From assembly GCA_010093515.1 (NCBI GenBank), contig MU001680.1:200318-264317 (forward strand): a stretch of 64,000 nucleotides of DNA, given 5' to 3'. The DNA is from Lineolata rhizophorae (Eukaryota; Ascomycota; Dothideomycetes; Lineolatales; Lineolataceae). Of the stretch, positions 47,121-56,976 are shown in pieces. The stretch's first letter is position 1. The number at the start of each line of letters is the position of its first letter. The notes below the pieces were generated by a model. It ran no database searches, was not told where the DNA came from, and saw only the letters and a program-made list of their open reading frames with translations. Made by a program: the position numbers and the translations under genes.

Positions 47121-48396
47121 AGGGGGCGCCAGAATGGGGCGTTGTGGCGGAGGCTCGTGGGTGGTGTTGGTGTTGTGATGCCCTTTCTTTCTTTTTTTTT
47201 TTTTTTAATTGCGGAGAGGAGTTGCGGGATTGTGTGAGAGTGGGAAGGGAGTGTGGGGGAATGAGGAGGTGAAAAAAGGGTCTGGCGCGAAGTGCTGTGG
47301 CGGGAAGATGGGCTAGAGTGTATTGCTTGGTGGTTAATTGGCTATTCGCGGGATTTGGTGCTCACTCGTTTGGAAGGGGCTCATTGGATTGTGCACTACG
47401 ACTGCTACGGGAACTGAGGGAAACAAACAATAGAGAGGGACCTTGGGGGAAAAGTTTTGACCTGTTGTATTCTATAAGCGATGTTTTCTATTTTGCGTCC
47501 ATTTTCTTTTGGAACGTTTCTTTTCCGCTGTCGGTTGTCTGCATCGCACATACGCATACACATTGCTGGGCGGCTGCCCGCGGGGTTCTTGTCAAGGTTG
47601 GTCATTGATCTAGGCATCTTGGTCTGTTTCCTTGTGTCAATTGGCAGTGGTAAGGCTCACACGGAACCATTGTTGCACTTGCGGCATGTAAATTGATTGA
47701 ATGGATCCAGTTCGCCAATTGTATATAGAAATGAGGAGAAGGTTTGGGTTGTCTGTTGCATTGAAAATGTTAGACGTGTTGAGCCGTGATATGGTGTTGC
47801 TTTTAAGGAACGTTATTCCAGCTATCAGTTCTCTTGTTGGTTCTTGAGGGATATATCATGTATAGTTCCTAGCCAGCAGCATCGCACCAAGGTGCAATAC
47901 TGCGCCAGTCTTTTGGCCAAGTCGGTTAGTTGCAGGCTAGGGCATGCTAGTTCTAACAAAAATAATTAAAAGAGAAGTCTAAAGGGAAGGATATCAGCTA
48001 GACATTCTACATTGTACGACGGTCGGTCTCCCCTAACTGCTATAAAAAGGGATTTACGACGCGGATATACGGCCAACTCGTACAGTTAGGCTCTAGAAAG
48101 GACCTTCTGTTACCACGGCGTTGACCCATATCACGTGGGACCCTTCCTATATGGGAAAGACCCCTGCCAAGCGCACGTGATGTCAACGCCCCTATGTAGA
48201 TGCCTGACAGGAGGCAGAGGGCACCTTCCACCCTTAGCGATCAGTTTGCCAATGCTTCCTTGAACCATCATTTCTTCGTGCGTTCAACGTGACTTGACTT
48301 GTTGATTCACACGACTATTCGCCCTGGGTCTCCTTGGCCCGTTAATGATAGTCACGTGATGATGCACGCTATGCAAACCTTTCTACGTTGGCGGCG
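47121..48396. other. Intergenic, start of accessory island
   Basis: About 1.3 kb of 3' flank of the magnesium transporter gene, turning AT-richer after 47.4 kb. Several CACGTG cores occur (48132-48137, 48174-48179, 48353-48358). No gene was recognised. Confidence 0.5.
48364..48386 (+). repeat. 23-bp direct repeat, copy 1
   Basis: The 23-nt string from 48364 to 48386 (beginning GCACGCTATGCAAACC and ending CTAC) recurs exactly at 48908-48930, 544 nt downstream. The decayed paralogue fragment lies between the two copies. Confidence 0.95.
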
Positions 48397-48625
48397 GCGT
48401 CTACTCTTATGGTTACAAGTGTCCGGATGGATATCGGCCGCCATTACCTCCCAACTAGGACAAGACTAACAGAAGATTAACGCAGCCGCGGCCTTCCCTT
48501 TCCCCATCCACATTCCCGGAGGGAGCATACCAGGAATTCGCGGAAGCGGAAGCGGAAGCGTTTAATGAGGATGCTGTAAAGGACACAGTACTTCCGGCGA
48601 TGCTAAAAGCCATGGGCGCTAATGC
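48397..48625 (+). pseudogene. Decayed partial copy of the 50688-52309 gene
   Basis: About 230 nt align base for base with 51421-51651 inside exon 2 of the intact gene downstream. Both read YGYKxPDGxRPPLxPN, then SLSPSTF, YQEF, EAxAxAFNED, and VLPAMLxAMGA. The copy has a TAG where the intact gene has a Trp codon (CCCAACTAG against CCCAATTGG), plus a one- or two-base frame disturbance after it, and it loses similarity past 48625. It lacks exon 1 and the conserved C-terminal half. This is a fragment of a second family member, diverged by many substitutions, probably an old duplicate. Confidence 0.88.
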
Positions 48626-49091: not shown

Positions 49092-50209
49092 TTATCCTTG
49101 TATCAAATTGTGTTTCTCAAGATGTTCCATGTATTTCAAGACCGTCCAGTCGTAAACATTGTCGTATTCGAAACCATGACGCTGGAAAAGACTGCGGAAC
49201 AAGCGGAGCAGATACTTATAATCAACGCCCCGATTATTGTCGCGAGACGTCTTGATATGATTGAAATATTCCACGAACTCATCCGGCAAGCCCTCGCACA
49301 GCTCTTCAGGTGACGTCGACTGTTTTTTCCGTAGAATGGCCGATTCTTTCTCCGACTGGCTTTTGCCTCGGAGCCCCATCCAAGGAAGGTTGCCTTGCTG
49401 AAGGAAGTATACGAAAACGTATCCTAATGCTTCCATGTCGTCTGCGGGCGATTGCTCTGTAAAATGTCAACCACACTATATTTCAATACCTTAGTATCGT
49501 GCAACCGATAACTTACCTACACCGCGGTGAGCATTAATGCTTGCATACCGCGCAGTACCGATAACAGGACCTTCCCGCTGCCGGTCGTTCAGTGCGGCTG
49601 CTGCGTCTGTAGACTCCTCCGCGAGACCCATATCGGTGATGTAAACGATGTTCCCTCGTGTCCCGCAGCCCATAAGTAGATTCTCGGGCTTAACATCTCG
49701 ATGGAGGAATCCCTTGGAATGGGTGTACTGAAACCGGCGGATGAGCTGGTCTGCCAGTAGTAACACCGTCCGGAGCGAGAATCGTCGACCGCAATAGTTG
49801 AACAGGTCTTCCAGGTTCGGTCCGAGAAGTTCGAACACCATAACCTCGTAGTCGCATTCATGGCCGTTCTAATACAACTCTGGTATGCCTGCACCGCCGG
49901 CAAGTTCTTTGTAGATATAGACCTCATTTTGGAGCCGCTCAGAATGTCGGCTTCGAACGTGTTCCAGCTTGAGCGCTACGTGTCGGGACGTCTGGATATC
50001 GGCACCTGGACAGCTGTCAGATAGTCAAAATAGAGATGTAGACGACGATACCTTCGTAAACGACACCGTAACTGCCACCTCCTAGTCGTTTCAAGAGGCG
50101 GTATTGGTCGTTGACGCGGATATCCTGCGAATATAGAGAGTTACGCCGTGAAACATGGGGTCCATCAGTTTAGAGGATTACGGACCAGCTCTTTCTCTGA
50201 TTCGGACAT
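49092..50209 (-). pseudogene. Casein-kinase-1-like gene with an in-frame stop
   Basis: Four exons are recognisable: 50209-50186, 50124-50052, 50005-49517 and 49456-49092. Splice signals are good (donors GTCCGT, GTATCG, GTAAGT; acceptors CGCAG, CCAG, ACAG) and all phases agree over 316 codons. CK1 features: glycine loop LGGGSYGVVYEG, lysine segment [25 protein letters not shown], the catalytic loop [12 protein letters not shown], then ITDMGLAEE where DFG is changed to [20 protein letters not shown] and ADDMEALGYVFVYFL. A TAG at codon 78 (49869-49871), in the segment GIPELY-stop-NGHE, truncates it to 77 residues, before most of the kinase core. All the rest is open, so it is a young pseudogene, a strain-specific null or a sequencing error. 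The C terminus stops soon after the kinase domain, shorter than canonical Hrr25/CK1 proteins. Confidence 0.88.
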
Positions 50210-50687
50210 TGTTGTAACTCCTAACAGTCATTAAAGTGGTGTGAACGCAAGATTAGAGGAACAATCGAGTGGTAGGTGCTTTTTGAGAGTCACACCGTTG
50301 AGCGCGGAGATGTTTGACCGGTGTTATTCCTGAGGCACGACTATTTTTGAAGTCCTGAGGCACGAAATATTCTCCTTCCTTCTCAGGCACGCGTCGTCAG
50401 TAAAACTCCCCTAGCGGTCGGGCCGAAACTTGGCCATGTCCTGATTGGCACTTGAGTGATGACTCAGAGGTATGCGGCACTTGGCGTGTTGCAAACGATT
50501 CGCTTGCGACATCCCGTCATCCGCGCTTGGCCAGATGCATGGGCGGGCTGCTCTGCCAAACGGTTGCAATTCACGTGCTTGCCGAAACCCTGCTCTAGCC
50601 GTCTCTTCCAGCCGCCGACAGCAAGTCCGTGCAAAGCGGAGAGCGTCAGTTGCGTCGCTCCGACCATCTCCGCAGCCGCCTTTGGCT
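50210..50687. other. Divergent intergenic region of CK1-like and accessory-family genes
   Basis: Under 0.5 kb between two divergent start codons. It presumably holds both promoters. A short near-repeat (TGAGGCACGA) occurs twice at 50330-50365. No other feature was seen. Confidence 0.5.
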
Positions 50688-52309
50688 ATGGCACCCAGCG
50701 TGGGATATAACCACAGGTCTTCTGCCGCTCTTAGGACTCACCACGATCCTGTTGTTAATGGTTCCTACATGCCCGAATCTCAACTTTCCAATCCTCGCAA
50801 GCGACAGCGTACGGGGCAACATCTCCTGTCCCCACCTCCATCTAAGAGGCAGAAGAAGCTCCCGCAGCATACTGCCGGAGGAGGATATATTGACACACCT
50901 GCATTTTGGGACAGCCTATCGAAGATCTGGTTGACCAAGCACGCGTTGAGAGAGTTCGACCGAAGGAATAGTCGCCCACATTCACCGTCCCGTCAAGCCC
51001 GCAGACTGACTACTCGAAACTTCCTAGCCGCGCAGAAGAGCACTCGTCAACGCATATCCGCCGCTGACTTTCTTTCGAACGGTGCACCAACACGTTTGAA
51101 GGAGATCAAGATATTTGCCCGACGTGGTGGTCCAGACTTATCTGATCTAATTGGCGTATGTGCTGTTGAGTTCCTGGCCTTTTGCGTCTTAACTGACCCT
51201 GCTCCTAGTACCCGCCATCCACCCCTCCCGATCGCAAGATGAGCTCGAGCCGATCAGCTTCTTACCGGAATCGTGGTTTATCATCCACGGCGAAGACCAA
51301 AAGCACAGGAAGAACTACTCCAGCGAGCACTACCACTGGGAAAACGACGTCTGGGCTAACTAAAAAGAGTGGAACGTCTAATCCCGGGGACGCCAACTAT
51401 CAACAGAGGCTCATTGATGGTGGCACGTACCCCTATGGTTACAAGTATCCGGATGGACATCGGCCGCCATTATCCCCCAATTGGGGCGCGGCCAACCAAA
51501 GATTGGCTCAATACCGGGCCTCGCTTTCGCCATCTACATTTTCGGAGGAGAAGTACCAAGAATTCGTAGAAGCGGACGCGGACGCGTTCAATGAGGACGA
51601 GATTAAAGACTCGGTACTTCCCGCGATGCTGAACGCCATGGGCGCTTCTAGCGGCGCCCGTAAAAACGTCTTGTTCACTAGTATCGAACCTATTACGGAT
51701 GGCATCACGCAGGCCAAACCGCATTACTACTACGGCGCACGGCCCGAGCAGATCCACAAAAAGATCCGCGATCCAGACGTCCCCGATAACCTCATCAGTC
51801 ACATCATCCCTTCGAACAACGATCACCTCCCCGCCGCACCCAACTTCTTCATGAAGGCGAAGGGGCCGGCCGGGTCCGCTGCGGAGGCCAGGCGGCAGGC
51901 CTGCCATGACGGTGCGATTGGCGCGAGAGCCATGCAGAGTCTTCTTTCGTACGGGCAAAGCGAGCCGGTCTACGACAACAACGCCTACACCATTTCGTCA
52001 ACGTATCATGACGGCACGCTCAAGATGTACGGACGCTCTGTTGCTCAGCCGAACGGCCCCGGGACGCGGCCTGAGTATTATATGCATCAAATAGATACTT
52101 ATGGCATGACTGGCAACAAGAAATCATTCCTCCAAGGAGCCACTGCGTTCAAGAATGCCCAAGACATGACAAGGGGGCACAGGAACGCCGCAATTGCTCG
52201 CGCGAATGAGATGGCAGCTCAAACAGTCGAAGAAGAAGAAGAAGATGATGATGACTCCGAAGCCGAATCGTCGAACCTAGTGCATAGCTTCGACTGCGGG
52301 ACCAACTAA
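50688..52309 (+). CDS. Unrecognised fungal accessory-family protein, 522 residues
   Basis: Two exons, 50688-51155 and 51209-52309. The intron is textbook: donor GTATGT, branch AACTGAC, acceptor CCTAG, phase 0. The start MAPSVGYNHRSSAALRTHHD is the first ATG of the frame after its upstream in-frame region loses protein character. The N-terminal part has two basic nuclear-localisation-like clusters (RKRQR, KRQKK), the motif AFWDSLSKIWLTKHALREFD and the motif LKEIKIFARRGGPDLSDLIG, which leads straight into YPPS at the exon junction. A Ser/Thr/Lys-rich linker follows, then about residues 229-300 with YPDGHRPPLSPNWGAANQRL and EEKYQEFVEADADAFNE. The C-terminal half reads HYYYGARPEQIH, PAAPNFFMKAKGP and YGMTGNKKSFLQGATAF, ending in a Glu/Asp run. 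I recall similar uncharacterised proteins in multicopy in Sordariomycetes but know no function. A decayed copy lies 3 kb upstream. Confidence 0.85.
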
Positions 52310-52860
52310 ACCTTCAGCATATTAGCTGAGGATAAGGATAAAAGCGAAACGTCCGTAGAAGAGGACTCTTAGATCTGTCTACTGGCAAAGCGCTTTTATC
52401 AAGGTCGCACTAGTCTCACCGCTAAAAACGAAAGACTAGCAAATCCAGCAGCCGATAAAGCAGTATAGTTATAGATACTAGCCGGAACGATCGGTAGTTA
52501 TAGCTTAGATAATAAATAAAATATAGTAAAGGTCTTAGAGATTACTCGTTGTCTTAACCTTCGCTTTCGTACTTTACACTATATTTTCCTTTTACTAAGA
52601 TAGCTACTTTCGTATCCCGCTTCGCTTATACCTCGACGATATTCTTATAGCTTATCTAAAATTTAGCTTATTTAATATCTTAGTATTTACTGTTCGGCTC
52701 CGGTGTCTCTTCTACTATTAAATTCCCTATAGCGATTTCGAGCCTCTATCTTAACCGAATATGCTACTCCTATCGCCGTATCCTGCTAAAAGATGAATAT
52801 CAATTATAGCGGCAACGTCTCGATATACTCCCGGCATGGTGCTCTTGTGAAGAGTAACAA
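52310..52860. other. TA-rich tract after accessory-family gene
   Basis: About 0.5 kb unusually rich in TA dinucleotides and short TATAGTTATAG-like strings, with no open frame of note. The composition is like sequence heavily changed by repeat-induced point mutation; the original identity cannot be read. Confidence 0.45.
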
Positions 52861-53330
52861 AGGAAAAGGCTTCTCGTTAAACAAACCGCGGCAGAGTTAG
52901 GAGCATGTTTACCCAAAGTGCCGCAAGGTGCTACCACGAGCATGCGACATGAACAAGCACATAAAGTGGCACGCGTGAACCCACGGATGCACATTCCGCA
53001 CGTGTAACAAGGAATTCGGCAGTAAAAATGACTGGAAGCGGCATGAGAACTCGCAGCATTTCTAGATCGAGGTGTACCGATGCTGAATGCCGGACACGTC
53101 AGCCTCCGCATAGTTTGGTCTCTGCGCGACTGCCTTCTACTTCCGCAAAGAGTTCAAGGCACATCTCATCGAGTGGCGCCAATCCTTCCGGCTGACCCTC
53201 ACGCCGGCGCTGGCGCTGGCGCCAACCCGCTGAAGAAGCGCAGGCTGAAGTCCATGCCTACCAATCCACCCGACCGCCCAAGGGCAAGGAATGGGTCTTC
53301 TCGAAAAGCGAGAGAATGACAGAAACAAGG
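52861..53330 (+). pseudogene. Relic C2H2 zinc-finger gene
   Basis: In one frame from 52901 the plus strand reads PKCRKVLPRACDMNKHIKWH, then after a stop CTFRTCNKEFGSKNDWKRHE followed by NSQH, a complete C2H2 finger. Then YRC, a stop, MPDTSASA, a stop, and FGLCATAFYFRKEFKAHL, a third degraded finger. Four in-frame stops lie between 52980 and 53115 and the first Cys of finger 1 is lost (Tyr). The stops are TGA and TAG codons that a single C-to-T change would make from CGA and CAG. The finger order resembles fungal C2H2 regulators of accessory genomes. It has no start codon or intact C terminus. Downstream of 53180 the frame loses character. Confidence 0.82.
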
Positions 53331-53981
53331 AGGCCAGCGACGGCGATATTGGTGGTGGTCAAATTTCTGGTTAATAGCCGTGGCACATCGGTCAAATGGA
53401 GTGATACCCGATTTCACTACTTCTATGGTGAGAAAGATATTATCAGTAGGCTGGAAACACTACCGTCTTAGTACATTACTCTTAGATCGCGATCTATCTA
53501 TATTACTACTACTTAGAAACTCTCCTAGTAAGTATATATAAACCCCTTCTAGCCTACTCTTCTTCCCTTTGCTTCTCTTCCTTTTCTCTCCTCGTGTAAG
53601 CTCCTGTCTAGTAGCTCGAATTCAAGGTCTTCCTCAGAGAATTTCTGCTTGTCTTCCTGACCGTGACAGCTTGCCTGTATAGAAGGCTAGGGGTCGATCC
53701 CTCAAGAAGTGATCCAGAAGTGCATTAGATCAATGCAATGTCTTAGTACTATATGTGAGATGTGGTACTTTTGATCGATTTCCGTTAGAAGTCATGAAAG
53801 GCGTATCCACGTGAGTTCTAAGCGGTTCTCTCAGTCAAGATTTCAGTTCATACAATTGATTGTTCCAAGTACTATAATAGGCTTCTTTCAACTAGTTTTA
53901 CACTGAGGGGACAAGTTGATAAGGGAAGCGAGTACCAGCAAAGGCAAAAGCTAGAGCAGCGAGTTACCCTTGCGAGCCGAA
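53331..53981. other. AT-rich tract, no gene seen
   Basis: About 0.65 kb. A TATATAAA string near 53535 is followed by a CT-rich run. That could be a cryptic promoter or the remains of a repeat, but without a second copy I cannot classify it. Confidence 0.4.
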
Positions 53982-56976
53982 TTACTTGCTTTGCGGGCTG
54001 TCATCGTTCACTGTTGCCACTGCGTCTAGAAACGCAAACGTGAACTTTTCCCAATTGCTTTGCAGGTACGTTAGGACCTGCTCCGACGTCGTCAGTTCCT
54101 GCGGTACCTTGCGGGGGATGCCGCTGCCCTGTCCCGCCCTGGACCGAATGAACTCGAGCACGGAGTCGACGAACTCGCGCAGCAGGCCAGGGTCCTGCGG
54201 GAGCACGAAGTCCATCACGTACGCGCTCATGATGGTGTACTCGTCATGCAGGGCCCTGAGCAGCATGCGGTTGAGGTGGTCGACGCTCTCGACGCGCTCG
54301 GTGCGGTCGAAGGCGCGCGCGAGCGGCGGCTCGTCCGCGTCGACGATGTACCGGTGGCAGCGGAGGAAGTCGTAGATGGAGACGGAGTCGACGGCGCCGG
54401 CGACGGCGGCGTTGATGAGGCGCACCGCCTCCTCCAGGAACCGGCCCGACACGTGGCCCGGCGACGGGTTCAGCGTCAGCCCCAGCGCGAGCGCCCACGT
54501 GTTGAGCACGACGTGCACCCAGCAGCTCCACTCGCTGGCCTGCGCCGCGCTGCGGATCTCGCCGCCGCCGCGGCCCGCCACCGCGTGCGCGTCCGGGAAC
54601 TCCGGCGAGGCGAAGTCGCCCACGACCGCGTTGTTGTACCACATGAACTGCCGCACGTGAGGGTAGACGTGGTCGCGCAGGATGGCGGCGCGCTCGTCCG
54701 GGGAGAATACGCGGCGCGCGCTGTCGTACCAGCGCACTTGGACGGCGCCGGCGTCGTCGCGCTCGAACATCAGGCCCCACATGTGGTATCTCGTCACCTG
54801 GACGTAGAAGAGGGTCCCTTGCGAGTAGGCCGCCCTCCTCTCGGGGTTCATGCTGGCATGGGGTCCCGTGAGCGTGAACCTGATGTCCGGGTTCTCTCTC
54901 TGGATCGCCCTTGTAACGCTCTCGATCGCGCTGTACACTTCCTCCTGAAACTCGAGCTGCCCGTGAGTGAGCGGGTTCGGCGCCCGCGGCCGAGACTTGT
55001 TGCGTGAAAGCGCCTCGGCTTCAAGCTCGGGCAGCTTGCTCCGGAAATTTGCGCAGATGCTTGCGATGGACGGCCTTCGTGGAGAGGTCAATTTCGTCGG
55101 GCCAGTCGGCGAAGCCTTGGCTTTTCCTTTTTGGACTTTGGGCGATCCTTGCACGCCGAGCGCTGATTTCTTCGCGGCTTTGGACGTTGGAGTTGAGGGT
55201 GGTTTTGACGACGGCGATTGCTGGGACGCCTTTCTCCGTTGAGAGGACGTCGTCTTTTGGGACGACGATTCGAATAGGGACGACGGTACCCTCTGAGACG
55301 AAGGTGTTCTCTGAGATGACGATGCTCGTCGAGACGGACCTGTTTTCTGGGGCGACGTCTTCTGCCCAGGATGCGTCTTGGGAGTTGGGGTCATCAGCAA
55401 GGTCGACGGATCCGGTATGTGCGGCAATGGCAGCCTTTCGTCTTCTGGTATCATCAACTTCCAAGGTGTCTTCGGCGACGGCTGCGTGGCCGGCACTTGC
55501 ACACTAGCCGCTCTTTTGGATGGCGACCCTTTGCCCTTCCGGGGGCTTTTCGGCGAAGCCGGCGAAGCCGGCGAAGCCGGCGAGACTTGGGTCTTCTGAA
55601 CTAGAAACGACGACTTGCTCTTTGTGGGGCTTGGTGTTTCTGATCGTGTTCCTCTGGTTAACGAAGAAGGAAAGTCGACCTCTTCTCCCTCTTCCTCTTC
55701 GTCCTCTACTTTGAGCGGGGGCTCCCCTTCGGTGTCGTCCGTTACTTCGGATGATTCTTCCCTATCCTCGTTTCCCTCCTCGTCCTCGTCCTCGTCCTCT
55801 CCCCCGTCCTCTTCCTCCTCCCCCTCATCCTCCACTTCCTCCTCCTCCTCCTCCTCCTCCTCCTCCTCCTCCTCCTCCTCCTCCGCCTCCTCTATTTGGG
55901 TGTTCGGCACAGCCTTCGCATTTGGAAACAACTCGCTAGGACGCCAAAATATGCGTCTCTCCTCATTGATCCCCTCGAGTGTTTCATACCAGCTCGCCTG
56001 CCAAGCGACCTATACATGCCGTCAGCCCGGGCCGTCATCCTTCGCCAACCACACAGCACACGTAGTAGCAAAACGTCAACAAAACAGAAACGAACGACTC
56101 GCAACATACCGGCTGAACAAACTCCCTATTGCGCGGGTGCCAAGCGAAGACGGGCTGCCCGTGCAGCTCCACGACGGTGAAATCCACCACGGGCACCAGC
56201 ACCGTCTCGGCCGGGAACAGCGCCTCGATCGCCTGGCCGTTCACGACGGCGTGCTCGGCCGGCACCTCCAAGAAGAAGCGCACGATGCGGCGCGGGCCCG
56301 GCAGCGGCGGCGGCGTCTTGCCCCGGGTCCTCGGCTCTTGCCCGGCCAGCCCGTTGGGCTGCTCGATGCCGTTGACCCGGTGGAACCGCAGCTGCCACCC
56401 GTCCGGCTCGCCGCCCGCCCTGCTCTCCAGCCGGCCCGCCACCGTCGACACCTGCCGCCAGACGATGCCGGCGCTCTGGCGGGCGTAGCGCACGGGCTCG
56501 TTCTCGGCCGTCAGGCCCTCGACTGCGCGCCAGTGTCAGCCAGAACCTCGCCCGCGGGGTGGAGGGGGGAGGGGGTGGGTCGCCTTGGAAGCGGCGCCCC
56601 CCCTGGCGGGGAGGGCCGATTCGTTGGGAAGGTGCGGCTTACAGAAGCACAGGGGCAGGGACGCGTCGTCGCCGAAGAGGTCGTCGGCGTCGAGCTCGGC
56701 GAGCTCGGCGGCGGCGGCGAAGAGCACCTGGACGGGGCCCGGCGCCGCGCGCAGCCTGATCAGGTCCCTGGCCGAGGAGCCGGGCCGGAGCGGCGACGGG
56801 AAGGGCGGCGGGCGCGGCCGGACGATGCGAGGCCGGCGCAGCGTACCGGCGGGTTGGCCGGCGCGGCGCCGGCCGGCCGGGTCCGGCGCCATGAAGGTCG
56901 CGGGCCATTCCCAGTCGACGTCTTCCTCGAGGGGGGCGACGATGGCGATCGTTTTGGCCTTCTTCCTCGGAGGCAT
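53982..56976 (-). CDS. Large protein with C-terminal Ulp1 (C48)-like cysteine-peptidase signature
   Basis: Three exons, 56976-56643, 56522-56110 and 56009-53982. Donors are GTAAGC and GTATGT; acceptors are GCGCAG (with CTGAC branch) and TATAG. Phases agree and give 924 residues. The start is MPPRKKAKTIAIVAPLEEDV. Residues ~110-290 form a globular-looking region (RYARQSAGIVWRQVS, EFVQPVAWQASWYETLEGIN, RRIFWRPSELFPNA). A poly-Glu/Asp tract encoded by a GAG run follows at ~290-340, then a long Ser/Pro/Lys linker. The C-terminal domain carries YHMWGLMFERD (His ~658), VRWYDSARR (Asp ~678) and QASEWSCWVHVVLNTWALAL, with Gln ~739 exactly six residues before Cys ~745. This His-Asp-Gln-Cys order and Q-x5-C spacing is that of Ulp1/SENP peptidases, though CW replaces the usual CG. 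It may be a SUMO/ubiquitin-like protease homologue, active or not; no database comparison was possible. It borders the accessory island. Confidence 0.83.
55838..55888 (-). repeat. GAG trinucleotide run coding poly-Glu
   Basis: Plus strand CCTCCTCCT repeats, coding about sixteen Glu residues in the Ulp1-like gene. Repeat length could vary between strains. Confidence 0.9.

Follow-up and report, generated by a model that had tools for sequence, protein, structure and literature searches.

Peptidases of clan CE are described as sharing a His that is followed by a hallmark Trp, an Asp (or Glu/Asn), and a Cys that has a Gln or Asn in its vicinity (PMC1847702, excerpt). The same excerpt describes proteins of the YopJ family that lack a Trp directly after the active-site His, yet cites data suggesting that they have protease activity, so the hallmark Trp is not absolute; this family enters our comparison from that description alone. 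In fungi, the set of C48-type enzymes reported for Aspergillus nidulans (PMC7096222, excerpt) consists of UlpA and UlpB together with the deneddylase DenA, and the same source describes an additional protease in Candida albicans, CaUlp3, which is homologous to Ulp2. Among the matches listed in the open literature, none dealt with a fungal C48-like protein that is divergent or inactive in the manner considered here.

The gene analyzed here lies in a 64,000-nucleotide stretch of the Lineolata rhizophorae genome (hereafter, the window), and its C-terminal domain had been read in an initial annotation as bearing the catalytic residues of Ulp1-like SUMO proteases. We examined how far this domain resembles the C48 family, which of its residues correspond to the catalytic ones, and what the protein might do.

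Gene structure and genomic surroundings

A three-exon gene occupies positions 53982-56976 on the minus strand and encodes 924 amino acids once the exons are joined (Table 1). Both introns have consensus ends and carry a CTGAC branch-point-like word close to the acceptor. Within exon 3, GC at third codon positions (GC3) was 0.97 in the C-terminal core, 0.85 in the tail and 0.62 in the acidic/Ser-rich linker. The exon join, the introns and the coding-like GC3 bear out the coordinates, the exon count and the protein length given in the initial annotation, and the joined protein also contains the acidic stretch, Ser-rich linker and separate N-terminal part that it described. The N-terminal 296 residues had no Pfam match. 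When used as protein queries, residues 573-924 and the part encoded by exon 2 each found only themselves in the genome. The gene is real and single-copy.

Table 1. Coordinates of the gene, its parts and the candidate catalytic residues (window positions; residues numbered in the joined protein)
Feature	Position	Strand	Remarks
Exon 1	56643..56976	-	residues 1-111; ATG at 56974-56976; GC3 0.94
Intron 1	56523..56642	-	120 nt; GTAAGC...CTGAC...GCAG
Exon 2	56110..56522	-	N-terminal globular-looking part, without Pfam match; GC3 0.96
Intron 2	56010..56109	-	100 nt; GTATGT...CTGAC...TATAG
Exon 3	53982..56009	-	acidic run, Ser/Pro/Lys-rich linker, C-terminal domain, stop
C-terminal domain as analyzed	53985..55079	-	residues 560-924
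H658-M659-W660 (YHMWGL)	54777..54785	-	H658 codon 54783-54785
D678 (WYDS)	54723..54725	-	catalytic Asp of the initial annotation
Q739	54540..54542	-	six residues ahead of C745
C745	54522..54524	-	candidate nucleophile, followed by W746

Toward lower coordinates, the neighbors are genes for a DUF7924 protein and a protein kinase, together with DNA of 0.46 GC; DUF3431 and RED_N genes lie on the higher-coordinate side. The features toward lower coordinates fit the earlier suggestion that the gene borders an accessory island. The DUF7924 match (PF25545) belongs to the plus-strand frame 51209-52306, within 50463-52306, and was just above the cut-off (27.7 versus 27 bits); the frame ahead of it, 50463-51239 on the plus strand, was without a Pfam match. 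DUF7924 had 37 matches genome-wide, several with internal stops, and by overdispersion across Neurospora crassa strains it is listed with the most divergent families of genes (PMC13412767, excerpt). A segment at 48388-48620 shares 76% identity with positions 51414-51646 of the DUF7924 gene, has stops in all three frames and matches no Pfam family; it is probably a decayed partial copy of that gene. Beside the DUF7924 gene, at about 49100-50210 on the minus strand, lies the protein-kinase gene (Pkinase, 44.9 bits over a 117-residue piece), which resembles casein kinase 1. The region between the DUF7924 gene and the 924-residue gene, about 52300-53900, is low in GC (0.46 over the 2 kb from 52001) and is perhaps decayed mobile DNA.

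Similarity of the C-terminal domain to C48 peptidases

A search of the 31.0 Mb genome (48 contigs) with PF02902 identified three places, none of them at the 924-residue gene. These canonical genes, L001, L002 and L003, scored 98.7, 73.4 and 51.6 bits, respectively. Judging by motifs and layout, L001 appears to be of the Ulp2 type and L003 of the DEN1/SENP8 type, and the best PDB matches of L002 were Ulp1-like protease and SENP1/SENP2. Sequence searches of Pfam, NCBIfam and PDB returned no C48 match for the C-terminal domain, and PF02902 (cut-off 20.7 bits) gave no line for the 924-residue protein at E<=10. At that threshold Pfam listed only Nop14 over the linker (E 0.0031; 16.3 bits, cut-off 34.9), Sigma70_ner, and B12-binding when the C-terminal domain was searched by itself (E 0.19); all three were below their cut-offs and were treated as noise.

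A small C48 profile was then built from five sequences, namely the three members from the same genome and stretches of 6dg4 and 2ckg. Against the C-terminal domain it gave 6.1 bits (E 3.7e-4 for a single sequence), a score that none of 5000 shuffles equaled, with the match covering only residues 733-762, which form the Cys helix. When the 272 window ORFs with 100 or more amino acids were scored, that of the gene ranked first (5.0 bits; runner-up 2.4), and its E of 0.0008 corresponds to about 0.2 when multiplied by the 272 ORFs. In the five leave-one-out profiles, the domain scored 2.7, 0.0, 4.0 and 3.6 bits and was unreported when 6dg4 was omitted, compared with 30.5-112.2 bits for the true C48 members left out. 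Because the match vanishes without 6dg4, the profile signal depends heavily on one sequence.

Four collinear C48 blocks scored 35.2 on the domain, against a shuffle mean of 16.9 (standard deviation = 5.5), with 10 of 2000 shuffles reaching as high, and this was the best score among 147 window segments. When an alignment of four C48 sequences (A1) was compared with the domain using hhalign, the match was collinear from the HW strand through the helix past the Cys, at E 0.027 for one comparison and a probability of 1.8%. With BLASTP against L002, the strongest piece covered the Cys region (E 0.023, one comparison); the remaining pieces, at E 1.5 or more, were regarded as noise. Judged by these sequence comparisons, the Cys-helix region is closer to C48 than shuffled versions are, and the overall resemblance of the domain to C48 is faint and below normal significance.

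Predicted structures were of low confidence. AlphaFold run without an alignment gave a mean pLDDT of 39.6 for residues 560-924 and 40.6 for a 230-residue core, neither of which is good enough for judging the fold. In both models, helices and a short strand are followed by three strands in a row and then by further helices, and the C48 core has a comparable order of strands and helices. Foldseek searches with both models found nothing below E 0.07, and the best match was an unrelated chain. The C48 chains 2oiv and 5jp3 were among the best 50 matches, at ranks 10 and 27 in one search and 30 and 47 in the other, a weak hint given that their E values (0.77 to 3.3) are not significant and that they stand amid many unrelated chains. 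No C48 entry was among the best 50 VIA-align matches of the core model (pLDDT 40.6), a result not counted as contrary evidence, since structure searches with models of this confidence carry little information.

Relatives were also sought outside the genome. Neither a collection of viral contigs queried with the 924-residue protein nor a collection of genome contigs queried with residues 560-924 yielded a relative; the two collections cover viruses and prokaryotes, in which a query with one protein picks up close relatives only, so that the result has no bearing on fungi. A query of viral contigs with A1 returned one pattern in one stretch, unconfirmed, and no relative. In the genome itself, the DNA pattern for W-x-C-[GWR]-x-H matched the gene and one further place, C9:143353-143382 (L005), which could be a chance match; the control gave 0 hits on either strand.

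Correspondence of the candidate catalytic residues

H658, D678, Q739 and C745-W746 are present as the initial annotation had noted them, with His in YHMWGL, Asp in WYDS, the Q-x5-C spacing and CW instead of CG. When the domain was shuffled 100000 times, the bare order H..D..Q-x5-C with loose spacings arose in 7415 cases, and this order is therefore weak evidence. A tighter pattern (H, 0-1 residue, W; a hydrophobic or aromatic residue before DS; Q-x5-C), composed after the sequence had been seen, occurred in 20 of 100000 shuffles and matched two of the three canonical C48 domains of the genome. The strict H-W form, carried by 38 of 100000 shuffles, is absent from the domain, which has H-M-W instead, so that the hallmark Trp (W660) sits one residue late; likewise, S-C-W stands in place of D-C-G around the Cys. 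Both H-W and D-C-G are invariant in the four sequences of A1.

Alignments with MAFFT were run 12 times, with three sequence sets and four settings, on segments trimmed to the core beforehand. The C48 catalytic Cys fell on C745 in all 12 runs of these trimmed segments, and the hallmark Trp was matched to W660 in 10 of them and to W706 in the other 2. The His position was occupied by H658 in four runs, M659 in two, M705 in two and a gap in four, and the Asp position by D722 in nine, D678 in two and a gap in one. The Q739-x5-C745 spacing is that of the oxyanion Gln, yet the Gln was placed on Q739 in only 2 of the 12 runs, with a gap in the other 10. In hhalign and in the ungapped block score alike, the His position was taken by M659 instead of H658, and MAFFT did not reproduce the register proposed between the domain and L001-L003. 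Compared with the scattered placements of His and Asp, the Cys and Trp correspondences, at 12 and 10 of 12 runs, are the firmer part. H658 and D678, previously proposed as the catalytic pair, exist as residues, but the alignments more often place the C48 Asp on D722 than on D678 and place the His on H658 in a minority of runs.

Like the canonical C48 proteins of the genome, the domain has the order of a W-bearing strand, D-S, Gln and Cys helix, as well as Q-x5-C, and with L002 it shares a helix past the Cys ending in A-L-G and then N-P (ALGVNP and ALGLTLNP in the two proteins). Unlike them, it escapes Pfam and has H-M-W for H-W and S-C-W for D-C-G. The distance from Asp to Cys is 67 residues here when measured from D678 to C745, compared with 46 in L002 and 42 in L003, and it would be 23 if D722 were the partner; the figure of 104 for L001 counts from an earlier D-S and not from the catalytic one. 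The Cys helix of PDB 6dg4, annotated as a Ulp1-like SUMO protease, NGWDCGVFTITNAICLALGVDP, is close to SEWSCWVHVVLNTWALALGLTLNP here, whereas 6dg4 retains H-W, D-S and D-C-G. A deneddylase of the DenA/DEN1 type, to which L003 belongs by our reading, would share the clan CE core if the C-terminal domain has one, but its motifs are canonical and L003 reaches 51.6 bits to PF02902.

Competing explanations and a possible role

Three explanations can be weighed against these data, apart from a papain-like or other clan CA peptidase, which was set aside since the order of residues is reversed: clan CA has the order Gln-Cys-His-Asn. It is quite conceivable, if somewhat short of probable, that the resemblance arose by chance and that the domain has another alpha/beta or mostly helical fold unrelated to C48, in which a Q-x5-C with a nearby His and Asp was picked out. 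The lack of a C48 match in Pfam, NCBIfam and PDB argues for this, as do the 7415 of 100000 shuffles with the bare motif order, the differing placement of His and Asp among alignments, the loss of the profile signal without 6dg4, and the best Foldseek match (E 0.07), which was to an unrelated chain. Against it stand the shuffle controls, in which 0 of 5000 (profile) and 10 of 2000 (blocks) were as high, the first rank among the 272 window ORFs, and the constant placement of C745 on the catalytic Cys in the core-trimmed segments. An active clan CE ubiquitin-like protease appears unlikely. Such an enzyme would accommodate a one-residue bulge through which H658 reaches C745, the third position would fall to D678 or D722, Q739 would line the oxyanion hole, and the enzyme would trim SUMO, Nedd8 or ubiquitin off a restricted substrate held by the N-terminal part. 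The presence of the four residue types in the right order with the exact Q-x5-C spacing, the placement of H658 on the catalytic His in 4 of 12 alignments, and the suggested activity of YopJ-family proteins that lack the Trp after the His (PMC1847702, excerpt) are in its favor; however, H-M-W and S-C-W replace motifs that are invariant in A1, hhalign and the ungapped blocks place M659 at the His position, and the organism already possesses three canonical C48 genes.

The explanation that we tentatively prefer, while holding it to be a little less than probable and on a par with chance resemblance, is a diverged C48-like domain whose active site has eroded and which acts as a binder. The residues and the gene structure on which it builds are observed directly. 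In its favor are the profile and block scores relative to shuffles and to other window sequences, the collinear hhalign match, the strand order of the two low-confidence models and the nonsignificant Foldseek rows of 2oiv and 5jp3; against it are the empty library searches, the low hhalign probability, the leave-one-out scores, the disagreement among alignments on His, Asp and Gln, and the low pLDDT. The protein would consist of a globular N-terminal region, an extended acidic linker rich in Ser and Lys that is probably disordered, and a C-terminal domain, probably C48-like (clan CE) but far diverged. Of the C48 features, the Cys helix QASEWSCWVHVVLNTWALALGL and the W660-bearing strand would have been kept, while the catalytic surroundings would have drifted to H-M-W and S-C-W. 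On the basis of these two motif changes, the role is likeliest non-catalytic or weakly catalytic. The ligand gripped by the domain may be SUMO, a different ubiquitin-like protein or a partner carrying SUMO; binding would probably take place in the nucleus, and the linker would act as a tether. Given a resemblance below significance and altered parts of the catalytic signature, the domain can at most be called a divergent and possibly inactive relative of the SUMO proteases. Of the Ulp1-like reading, what stands is the motif text and a Cys-helix likeness above that of shuffles; a SUMO protease is not supported, given the lack of a library match, the altered H-W and D-C-G, the contested Asp and the low-confidence structure models. 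Because the domain does not reach the Pfam cut-off and has neither H-W nor D-C-G, classifying the 924-residue protein in the C48 family would be unwarranted. The initial annotation had offered a deSUMOylase-like or a pseudo-protease family, and "pseudo-protease" is the better half of that proposal. A broader idea, which we consider rather doubtful, is that the protein represents a new class of fungal C48-derived pseudo-proteases, with an eroded clan CE domain, an acidic linker and a novel N-terminal domain, that would read or shield ubiquitin-like modifications instead of removing them.

If the resemblance is wrong, the case warns against relying on H, D, Q and C in order, which are weak evidence. 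If it is right, the fungus would have a C48-like protein, possibly a SUMO reader rather than a protease, in addition to counterparts of the two SUMO proteases and the single deneddylase described in Aspergillus nidulans, and it would count as extra because the set described in that species is UlpA, UlpB and DenA (PMC7096222, excerpt). Extra C48 genes in fungi have a precedent in CaUlp3 of Candida albicans, described in the same excerpt. Since Pfam misses the 924-residue protein, similar proteins would be missed as well.
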